From Phascolomyces articulosus (Eukaryota > Mucoromycota > Mucoromycetes > Mucorales > Lichtheimiaceae), in assembly GCA_025677815.1 (NCBI GenBank), contig JAIXMP010000001.1, positions 2,294,001 to 2,358,000 of the forward strand: a stretch of 64,000 nucleotides of DNA, read 5' to 3'. The stretch's first letter is position 1. Each line of letters begins with the position of its first letter. Under the pieces are notes generated by a model that made no database searches, had not been told where the DNA came from, and saw only the letters and a program-made list of their open reading frames with translations. Shown here piece after piece: positions 40,973 to 45,159 of the stretch. The position numbers were made by a program, and so were the translations under genes.

Positions 40973-41485
40973 AAATAATTATTACAAAAGAGTAAATAAT
41001 AAAATATTTTTCTATGCAGCAATAGATTTTTCTTCCTAATATCAGTATTATAGTAATACATTTCATAGAATTGTGTAAATAAATATAAAGGTTTTTGTAA
41101 CGTAGTTTGCACGTTTTTAATGAGAAAAACACTGATACAGAGTGAACGAGTGACGCTCTTTATATTTTAATGTAGTCAACATGATACCTGTTGATGAATA
41201 GCATTAATTTGGGTCAAGCTTTCAAAATAGAAAGCCCGCCAGTTTTTATAATCAACCCTTTGAAGTTGGAAAAACGCAACGCGGCAAGAACCATTTCCAC
41301 TTGGATTCCTTTCTATTTCTTTTTTTTACATTGTGGGGTAAAGCCATTATTCTCTCTTTTCATGTGCTGCATCGATCCTTAAAAAAACTAATAGTATAAC
41401 TTGTTTATTATTCAGAATTCTTTTCTTTTGCTTTACAATTTTATATTCTATATAAATATAACTTTTTTTTTTTGAATCGAACACA

Positions 41486-42240
41486 ATGGAAATAACAAGT
41501 GGACCCTTTTTTACGACTTCTTCGGGGTTGATTGATAGTGTTGACAGTATGTTTTCGAATGGAAGGGAAAAGAAGAAAAAGGAAAGGGAAGGAAATAAAA
41601 GAACAGTAGGAATAAGAATGGTTATTTTATCGTAGAAAAGCTCATGGTGGTATTGAGAGATGGACGTAAACTCATCGGTACTTTACGATCCTTTGATCAA
41701 TTCGGTATGTGTTGTCTATTTTTTTTCCGTTTCTTTGTTCCATATCAATATTTTTCTCTATATGGTGAGTGTAAGGTGAAGTAATGCATAATGATTGATT
41801 ATTGATAAATACATATGGATGTCCTGTATATATAGCAAACCTGGTATTGCAAGATACTATCGAAAGGATATATGTTGGTAACTGTTATGGTGACATACCC
41901 AGAGGCATTTTCTTGATCCGTGGTGAAAATGTTGTCTTACTTGGCGAAATTGTATGTTATATCTTTTATTATTATTATTCTATGATTGGATAAGAGGGAG
42001 AAAGAATGATATAGGTTAGATAATAATATATTGATGTATGATCTTATTCATATATCTCGATGGGATTATTAGGATTTGGATAAAGAAGAACGATCCAACT
42101 TGCGAGAAATTCCAGTAGAAGAAGTTTTAGTAGCACAACGTGAAGAGATGGAAGCTAAACAGCGATTAGAAAAGATACGGAGTAGAGTTTTACATGAACA
42201 AGGATTCTGTGTCGACAATAGTCAGAATGATTTGTATTGA
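41486..42240 (+). CDS. LSM1: U6 snRNA-associated Sm-like protein LSm1
   Basis: Four exons: 41486-41546, 41636-41704, 41836-41951 and 42073-42240; 137 aa, the usual Lsm1 length. Sm1 motif: [20 protein letters not shown] then [14 protein letters not shown] across intron 2. Sm2 motif: [17 protein letters not shown]. The sequence [20 protein letters not shown] is diagnostic for Lsm1 rather than Lsm2-8. A charged C-terminal helix follows ([20 protein letters not shown]), as in Lsm1, where it occludes the ring and helps RNA binding. Role: founding subunit of the cytoplasmic Lsm1-7 ring that with Pat1 binds oligoadenylated mRNA 3' ends and promotes decapping in P-bodies. Intron phases 1, 1, 0. Confidence 0.95.
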
Positions 42241-42950
42241 AACATTGATCATAATAAAAAAAAAGAAAAGATTATGAATACTCCTACATGTACTTATACA
42301 ATGTTGAGTATATAAACATTTATATATGTATCGAAATGTTGCCAATAATAATATGAAAGGGTTTATAACAAAATAAAAACATGGTTTATTTGTTCTGCTA
42401 TCGTTTTTATTACTATTATCAACCTCTTTAAGCACCTTATTATAATGCACATACATAGATATATTTGAGGGCTCTTTTATGTTGCTTTTTTGACACTTTC
42501 TCTAATGACCCTAACTATTTTTATTATTTGTCTCTGATAGTAAAATAATAATTCCTGAAAACCCATTGTGAATTGTTTGTAATAAGTAGGTATACATATT
42601 CTTGGAGTACAAGTTGAGATTCTGAAACATTGTTATTATGTATAATTATAAGTGCTCTTTTAAAATATGATCCGCCATAAGTAATCAAAATCATGTATGC
42701 ACAGAAAGCGAAAGGCTGGAGTAACTAAAGAGATAATAATAGTGAAGGAATTTGGGTTATAGTTCTACTGATCTACCAACTTTTCGGTTCCGGGTGCTTG
42801 ATAGGGAAGTCTGAAAGAGGTGCATACAACAAGCCACAAGGGGTTTTAAACTTTCTGCATTGATTTTACGACCTTTTTTTCTTCTTTTCCTCACTTTACT
42901 TCTCTCTCTCCCTCTCTCTTCTCTCTTCTCTTCTCCAAAAAGCTTTCAGT

Positions 42951-45159
42951 ATGGAATATAATCCAGTTACCACTGAACAATTAATGTAAGTCATATTAAC
43001 TAACTACATAAAGAACAACATAAATAATCAAGAATGTTATTTACTCACCGAGATCTAATATAATCTAATTCTTTTTGCTCTCTTTGATCTTGTTACTGGA
43101 AAATAGCTTGGTAAGTTCTTGGAAAAGGCCCGGGTTAGAATGAGTGTGTGTGCTGCGGTTCGGAAAGGAAAAGAAATTTGTTTAATAATTTTATTGAATT
43201 GGAATTGTAAAATAATAGTGTCCAGGATGTGGTGTTCCAACCCCACCCAACGCAGCAAACATGTGTGTCAACTGCATTCGAAATGAAGTTGACATCACTG
43301 AAGGCATTCCAAAGCAAGTCCATATTCATTTCTGTCGTAACTGTGAACGATACTTGCAACCACCTGGCATTTGGATCGTAGCCGAACTCGAATCTCGGGA
43401 ACTTTTAACACTTTGTCTCAAGAAATTGAAAGGTTTAAATAAAGTTCGTTTGGTTGATGCAGGGTTTATTTGGACAGAACCACACAGTAGACGTATTAAA
43501 GTCAAATTGACGATTCAAAAGGAGGTAAAATAATTACACCCATTGTACTTAGAGGAATACTTAGGGGAAGGATGTAGAAGGAGAGGGAGGAAATGGGATG
43601 ATGGTATGCTTAGTCATACATTGGATTGAAACAACAAAGTAGAAAGAATGTTTCTGGGCTGGGTTACTAATTTTGATCTGCTGCGGTTTACAAAAAAAAA
43701 AAAGGTTTTCGCAAACACTATTTTACAACAAGTCTTTGAAGTGGAATATGTCGTAGGATATCAGCAATGTGAAGAATGTACTCGATTGGCTGCTCAAAAC
43801 ACATGGAAGGCTACTGTCCAAGTTCGTCAGAAGGTTGAACATAAGCGTACTTTCCTTTACTTGGAACAGCTGATTCTTAAGCATAATGCTCACAAGGATA
43901 CTACCAATATTCGAGAAACCAAGGATGGTATTGATTTCTATTATGGTCATAGAGCTCATGCTGTTAAAATGCTCGAATTTTTGAGTGCTGTTGTACCAAT
44001 CAAGTGAGTTACAGTAAAGATGTTGATAATTGGGCTAGATTAGGTTTTCATCTCTGTGATAAAAGGAAACTAATCATATTTAATGTAATTTAATAGATAC
44101 AAGACTAGTGAACAACTTATTTCTACAGATATCCACACAAGTGTCAGTAATTACAAGTTTACATACTCTGGTACGATTTTATTATAATAATGAAAAAAGG
44201 AGGGATGGGATAATGAAGATGGATGGTTTGAGCACTCATATTGATGGATGAGAAATGGTGGGTGCTAATATATTTATATTGCTTATTTCATTTTTACAGT
44301 TGAAATCGTTCCTGTTTGTAAGGATGATATTGTATGCTTACCAAGAAAGGTTGCCAACAGTTTGGGCAACATTAACCCATTATTATTATGTACACGTGTG
44401 GGTAACACAATTCATTTGGTCGATCCCAACACATTGAACTCTGCAGATATTAATACCAACATTTACTGGCGTACACCTTTCTTACCCTTGGCATCCTCCA
44501 AAACATTAACCGAATACTATGTTCTTGACGTTGAACCCTTAGGCCCTGTTAAGGGACGACAAGTCCTTGCTGATGTCCATGTAGCACGCATGTCCGATTT
44601 CGGTCATAACGACAATGAATATATTGCACGATCCCATCTGGGTGCCGTCCTTAATCCTGGTGATACTGTCCTTGGTTACGATTTATCACACGCTAACTTT
44701 AACAATGATGACTTTGACAAATTAGATCGTAGCTCTTTAACTGATGTGATCTTGGTCCGTAAATCTTACCCACAACGCAGAAAGAAGAACAAGCAACGTA
44801 ACTGGAAATTACAGCAACTTGGCAAGGAAGTCGATGATATGTTGCCACGGAAACAAGATGTGGCTCGTATTGAAAACGACATGGAAATGTTTATGCGTGA
44901 TATTGAAGAAGATCCTGAATTCCGTTCCAATATTAATATCTTTAAGGATAAGAATAACCGACCTGTCGTACTACAACCTGAACCTGATCACAATGCCATG
45001 ACTGATTCTTCAGATATTGAAGAAGAAGACTTCCCCGAAATTTCTTTGGAAGAAATGTTGGATGAAATGCAAATTAATCAAGATACTTCAGAACACATTG
45101 AAATACAACAACCTCAAGCACAGCAACAAGGTGATGATGAGGATGTGATGATGATGTAA
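42951..45159 (+). CDS. NMD3: 60S ribosomal export adaptor NMD3
   Basis: Six exons: 42951-42985, a micro-exon 43107-43110 (4 nt), 43219-43524, 43705-44003, 44097-44170 and 44300-45159; 525 aa, matching human/yeast NMD3. The two first junctions create ILCPGCGVPTPPNAANMCVN, the first zinc-ribbon Cys pairs, followed by FCRNCERYLQPPG. Conserved segments: RLVDAGFIWTEPHSRRIKVK, ILQQVFEVEYVV, WKATVQVRQKVEHKRTFLYL, YSVEIVPVCKDDIVCLP, SHLGAVLNPGDTVLGYDL and RNWKLQQLGKE near the basic nuclear signal RRKKNKQR. The acidic C-terminus fits the export-signal region, with EISLEEMLDEMQI resembling the leucine-rich NES. Role: loads on pre-60S subunits in the nucleus and recruits Crm1 for export. The micro-exon supplies C plus TTG; without it the frame is lost. 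Confidence 0.95.
43107..43110 (+). other. NMD3: Predicted 4-nt micro-exon of NMD3
   Basis: CTTG flanked by AAATAG upstream and GTAAGTTC downstream, i.e. consensus acceptor and donor. Exon 1 ends in phase 2 (AT) and exon 3 opens TGT CCA GGA TGT. Inserting C TTG gives Ile-Leu-Cys-Pro-x-Cys, the conserved ILC..CG start of NMD3. Direct joining of exon 1 to exon 3 shifts frame. Confidence 0.75.

Follow-up and report, generated by a model that had tools for sequence, protein, structure and literature searches.

The window analysed here is a stretch of 64,000 nt from the genome of the fungus Phascolomyces articulosus (contig JAIXMP010000001.1). A six-exon gene encoding NMD3 is located at positions 42951-45159 of its forward strand. 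NMD3 is the export adaptor of the 60S ribosomal subunit and is essential in yeast. The Pfam domains NMD3 (PF04981), NMD_SH3 (PF21193) and NMD3_OB (PF21192) are found in the product above their cut-offs, and the yeast NMD3 structures (PDB 6n8k and others) match it with E-values of about 1e-180. Among the best 120 of 4484 matches, the nearest public relative is the protein from Zychaea mexicana (92% identity, 90% of the query covered), a genus placed in the Lichtheimiaceae (Mucorales) by the taxonomy that was looked up. A search for the family in the 47.4-Mb genome (110 contigs) returned two blocks of exon size, and both are parts of this gene.

The six exons, all on the + strand, add up to 1578 nt including the stop codon, with a frame that is open throughout and a product of 525 aa. 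Coding exon 1 (42951-42985, 35 nt) encodes MEYNPVTTEQL plus the bases AT, ending as ...TTA AT in phase 2; it comes from the open-path model described below and from the M[ED]Y.P start present in four intact relatives. Intron 1 (42986-43106, 121 nt) runs from GTAAGT to AAATAG, and the micro-exon CTTG (43107-43110, 4 nt) then provides the third base of the Ile12 codon and the codon of Leu13. Intron 2 (43111-43218, 108 nt) runs from GTAAGT to AATAG. Exon 3 (43219-43524), placed by the model, the family match and the relatives, starts with TGT CCA GGA TGT, which encodes the CPGC of the first treble clef, and contains an internal ATG at 43261. Exon 4 (43705-44003) is defined by the open frame and a Pfam block, and exons 5 (44097-44170) and 6 (44300-45159, with the stop codon) by the open frame.

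Two other features of the locus should be mentioned. Intron 3 (43525-43704) has a run of A before its AG and an acceptor without a pyrimidine tract; the acceptors of the 15 reference introns used for scoring are generally A/T-rich. The start codon is preceded by a long CT-rich tract plus CAG (42895-42950), where the AG scores 2.4, and another AG at 42942 scores 5.2. A 5' UTR intron upstream of the start codon is possible, as a candidate only. The Rfam scan of the whole window gave nothing at gathering scores.

Reading frame and splice sites of the 4-nt exon

With exon 1 closing in phase 2 and exon 3 opening in phase 0, their direct join shifts the frame, as the first-pass annotation had stated. 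The computed product of this join has 65 aa and is out of frame beyond residue 12, and retention of intron 1 gives a stop after 12 residues. The insertion of CTTG had been proposed to restore the frame, and this was confirmed: IL is placed before the first zinc cysteine (CPGC) and the whole spliced gene remains open. The N-terminus of the product containing CTTG reads MEYNPVTTEQLILCPGCG. The predicted junction is ...TTAATCTTGTGTCCAGG with CTTG and ...TTAATTGTCCAGG in the direct join.

For the enumeration of all splice paths from the start codon to exon 3, one or two introns were allowed, each of 30 nt or more, opening with GT or GC and closing with AG. There are 32 open paths (one with a single intron and 31 with two), and only the CTTG path, which removes 42986-43106 and 43111-43218, ends in [ILVM]L. 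In the NMD3 proteins retrieved (126), IL or VL precedes the first zinc cysteine in 75 of the 81 that are readable there, and the six exceptions include three broken models from the same lineage. A different upstream exon encoding ILC had been named as one of the findings that would contradict the micro-exon. Two candidate exons that end in [ILVM]L in phase 0 were found in 41000-43218 and both were rejected: the one at 41878 (donor 5.0, 14 open codons, one in-frame ATG) has a reading unlike NMD3 starts, and the one at 42130 has a donor of -3.3 and no in-frame ATG.

The scoring matrix for splice sites was derived from 15 introns of this genome whose boundaries are defined by homology: NMD3 introns 3-5 and 12 introns of HSP70-family genes. 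They had to begin with GT and end in AG to be considered, and their lengths range from 81 to 255 nt. Of 13 HSP70 junctions, the one at 872826 in the C22 copy was ambiguous and was excluded; three of the 12 kept (one in C22, the first and second in C56) were chosen by eye between two equal fits, and the second junction of C26 was kept despite a one-residue difference from the profile. These reference introns have A at +3 in 14 of 15 cases and end in TAG in 10 of 15.

Few introns and some junctions picked by eye make this a small matrix, biased towards the usual consensus. With it, the top two of the 20 GTs in 42951-43260 are 43111 (7.4) and 42986 (7.2), and the top two of the 15 AGs are 43106 (6.6) and 43218 (5.9). 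The acceptor AAATAG and the donor GTAAGT that flank CTTG, described beforehand as consensus sites, are thus the best of the interval. Since the four sites of the micro-exon rank at the top, the splice signals alone choose the same sites as the protein. Among the sites of the 15 reference introns, both donors would rank in the lower half and the acceptors in the middle range. A self-trained ab initio matrix (264 kb) was also built and discarded. It was diluted and its percentiles (77th and 90th for the two donors, 42nd and 15th for the acceptors of introns 1 and 2) were left unused because it had drifted and misplaced NMD3 intron 3 at 43525-43869 instead of 43525-43704. Inspection of introns by eye gave no clear branch-point consensus, and the predicted RNA fold around CTTG is nothing unusual (z 1.15; 84 of 100 shuffled sequences fold just as well).

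Regarding chance, the interval was simulated 200,000 times with a first-order Markov model. Exons of 4 nt that are preceded by AG, followed by GTRAGT and produce Ile-Leu arose at a rate of 0.00034, and those with a length of 4, 7, ... 37 nt whose product ends in [ILV]L at 0.0007. Cassettes of 1-15 nt with strong sites, counted on both strands of 264 kb comprising the window and the region to its left, showed no clear excess: 29 were found, three of them of 4 nt, where ten order-3 Markov copies gave 24.6 +/- 5.6. Since these cassettes are not clearly enriched, the cassette pattern alone is no proof of an exon, and the weight of the case is in the frame and the protein constraint at this site.

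This constraint concerns the first zinc treble clef. In the spliced product, C14-C17-C29-C32 form two CxxC knuckles that align to those of yeast. C14 directly follows the micro-exon, which supplies the Leu13 codon, and without CTTG the first CxxC is lost. In yeast NMD3, the N-terminal treble clef (residues 16-42; C19-C22-C35-C38) is reported to be bound to eIF6/Tif6 in states I-V of cytoplasmic 60S maturation (PMC6579518), and docking on Tif6 is also described for late 60S maturation (PMC6393466). The S. cerevisiae protein is homologous over query residues 11-497, with a first knuckle that reads CCNC whereas that of P. articulosus reads CPGC (43219-43230). The CPGC knuckle is present in the eight fully visible Mucorales/Umbelopsidales entries (P0003, P0004, P0005, P0006, P0007, P0010, P0011 and P0032), and the first two letters are CC (54) or CA (19) in the 73 readable entries of the other 89 retrieved. 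It could possibly serve as a lineage marker.

CTTG is within the size range of micro-exons (internal exons of up to about 30 nt, or 51 nt in the plant paper cited below) and is flanked by a canonical acceptor and donor. Its anatomy, frame logic, site strengths and homology are established at the level of the sequence. The second coding exon of NMD3 is very probably this 4-nt CTTG in an otherwise ordinary gene, its inclusion in the mRNA being deduced from the protein required. Since the reading frame requires CTTG, its inclusion is likely to be constitutive.

N-termini of NMD3 in related fungi

The relatives were taken from the same best 120 matches, each row being the representative, and the only member seen, of a 90% cluster. 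Orders were assigned from genus names, and the taxonomy of Umbelopsis and Bifiguratus was looked up as well as that of Zychaea. Mucorales and Umbelopsidales account for 37 rows, several of which come from one species, Rhizopus arrhizus. These rows include P0020, P0022 and P0030, which are 96-100% identical to their five nearest rows, the named ones being all Rhizopus.

Only four of these 37 models have an intact start, 26 begin at the internal Met that corresponds to 43261, and seven show other starts (4, 23 and 7 of 34 without P0020, P0022 and P0030). This agrees with the truncation that the first-pass annotation had foreseen for automated gene models. The intact ones are from Lichtheimia ramosa, Parasitella parasitica, Umbelopsis ramanniana and Sporodiniella umbellata. 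All four read LILCPGCG and are identical to the spliced N-terminus in 38-40 of 44 residues. A search with residues 1-44 (17 matches of 40 candidates) returned the same four on top and no further intact entry from either order. In the 83 entries outside both orders, the start is intact by pattern in 64, at the internal Met in 14 and of another type in five, two of which (P0095 and P0103) do carry the motif beyond the reach of the pattern. Bifiguratus (Endogonales, also in Mucoromycotina) was counted within these 83 and is intact. The representative of the Mucor velutinosus NMD3 cluster, P0006, carries the name 'Uridine/cytidine kinase' in the source record, which is apparently a misnomer.

Two Umbelopsis models are informative about the junction itself. 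The Umbelopsis vinacea model (P0011) reads MDYNPV and then CPGC, like the sole single-intron open path in the window. The model from Umbelopsis sp. (P0014) reads MDYNPVVTEQLIL and then V..., as if it had been translated past a GT donor located directly after the Leu codon. Both point to the same phase problem in Umbelopsidales, in which case the exon would be older than the split between Mucorales and Umbelopsidales. The pattern of protein models thus suggests that the micro-exon is conserved across both orders, and the annotation of the P. articulosus gene itself is presumably truncated like those of its relatives.

It is also conceivable, if rather unlikely, that the micro-exon is real in this genome and not lineage-wide, and that the truncated relatives reflect a short first exon overlooked by gene finders. 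A missed 35-nt first exon alone could also give models that begin at the internal Met, and the 14 truncated outsiders (P0044, P0047, P0051, P0053, P0054, P0056, P0058, P0063, P0064, P0081, P0084, P0089, P0112 and P0114) begin at this Met without any known micro-exon. Nevertheless, the truncated share is far higher within the lineage, and the phase problem that a micro-exon should cause is visible in P0011 and P0014. Since those 14 share the start, there may be a wider difficulty in annotating the 5' end of NMD3, perhaps with introns at the same place.

The case of P0020 deserves a comment. It is 100% identical over the aligned part to an R. arrhizus entry and lies on a contig of 1864 nt. This exceeds the coding length of P0020 by 415 nt, compared with a total of 402 nt for introns 3-5 of the NMD3 gene in the window. 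The contig may be a transcript (cut or whole) or a genomic piece with short introns, and it argues clearly neither for nor against the micro-exon.

Probable inclusion of the micro-exon and known micro-exons

Both introns flanking CTTG are short, so each could be recognised across the intron, that is, by intron definition. Most likely they would be removed one after the other, since the machinery cannot occupy both sides of 4 nt simultaneously; once one intron is gone, the site still to be used would sit in an exon of normal size. Failure in the form of skipping of CTTG or retention of intron 1 would lead to an early stop. Micro-exons of Schizosaccharomyces pombe have been tested experimentally, and a study whose title refers to intron definition in this yeast is among the sources cited in PMC11121469.

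This early stop raises the alternative that CTTG is real but regulated, with inclusion giving NMD3, skipping through a single 233-nt intron giving the stop, and the ratio of both tuning NMD3 and 60S export. The skipping intron would keep the outer sites, its length is within the 81-255 nt of the reference introns, and its out-of-frame 65-aa product resembles that of a poison switch. Moreover, a 20-nt micro-exon switch has been reported in a fungus, in Xlr2 of Trichoderma (PMC11121469). However, the inner sites score slightly above the outer ones and routine inclusion is therefore favoured, so regulation of this type is improbable.

The micro-exon could also be unused, translation starting from the internal Met at 43261 and giving a protein without the first CxxC. 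This is where the 26 truncated lineage models begin, including the Rhizopus-like P0020 on its short contig, but half of a zinc site that is conserved in fungi and other eukaryotes would go, the full start is kept in four lineage relatives and in 64 of the 83 outsiders, and exon 1 encodes MEY.P..EQLI, which matches the intact relatives. It is very hard to reconcile such a start with these observations. A single intron with its donor inside exon 1 (42966, GTTACC), joining MEYNP in frame to CPGC, is the only open single-intron path and has the shape of the P0011 model, but it is highly implausible, with a donor that scores -3.5 (12th of 20 GTs) and the loss of the EQLIL kept in the four intact lineage relatives.

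Routine inclusion of CTTG, the preferred reading, has precedents in other eukaryotes. The first-pass annotation had placed 4-nt exons near the lower limit of what spliceosomes handle, and this is too strong, since 1-nt exons have been validated in plants (PMC8831610) and a human minigene was spliced with a 0-nt exon (PMC9929638). In that work on human MPC1, exons of 4 bp and, in minigenes, even of 1 or 0 bp were reported to be spliced if the sites were intact. The natural MPC1 micro-exon shares with CTTG its size of 4 bp, which is not a multiple of three, and is reported as constitutively included (PMC9929638), but it belongs to another gene and another lineage. The 1-nt micro-exons of plant VPS55 and APC11 are likewise tiny coding exons in conserved genes (PMC8831610). 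As described there, that of VPS55 has a GTRAGT donor, as CTTG does, and suffered the same annotation failure, with loss of N-terminal residues; both plant exons have been validated by RNA, whereas the 4-nt fungal exon is known from its sequence. The micro-exon of Trichoderma virens Xlr2 is also fungal and encodes part of a zinc-binding domain, but it has 20 nt and is regulated by glucose, while CTTG is probably routine (PMC11121469). According to PMC11121469, no functional micro-exon had been reported from filamentous fungi before that case (2024). No report of this NMD3 micro-exon was found among the listed matches of searches in the open-licence PMC literature. The CTTG exon is new and well supported, and comparably small micro-exons are already known in animals and plants.

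As a whole, the evidence leans slightly towards a 4-nt coding exon that predates the Mucorales/Umbelopsidales split and has been retained in a core gene of ribosome assembly, that acts as a splice checkpoint where an error means no NMD3, and that has left about 9/10 of the listed public NMD3 clusters of the lineage (33/37) without the correct start. A core fungal gene would thus have an apparently very small exon that is indispensable for its frame, and this single tiny exon may corrupt the same protein in many public genomes. If it is shared by the lineage, the N-termini of conserved proteins in early-diverging fungi would warrant rechecking as well. Since 4 nt are shorter than the usual read anchors, short reads would have to be mapped across this exon with a micro-exon-aware aligner or a junction index. 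If the exon is lineage-wide, these fungi would offer a natural test of how a spliceosome used to short introns deals with an exon below its own footprint.
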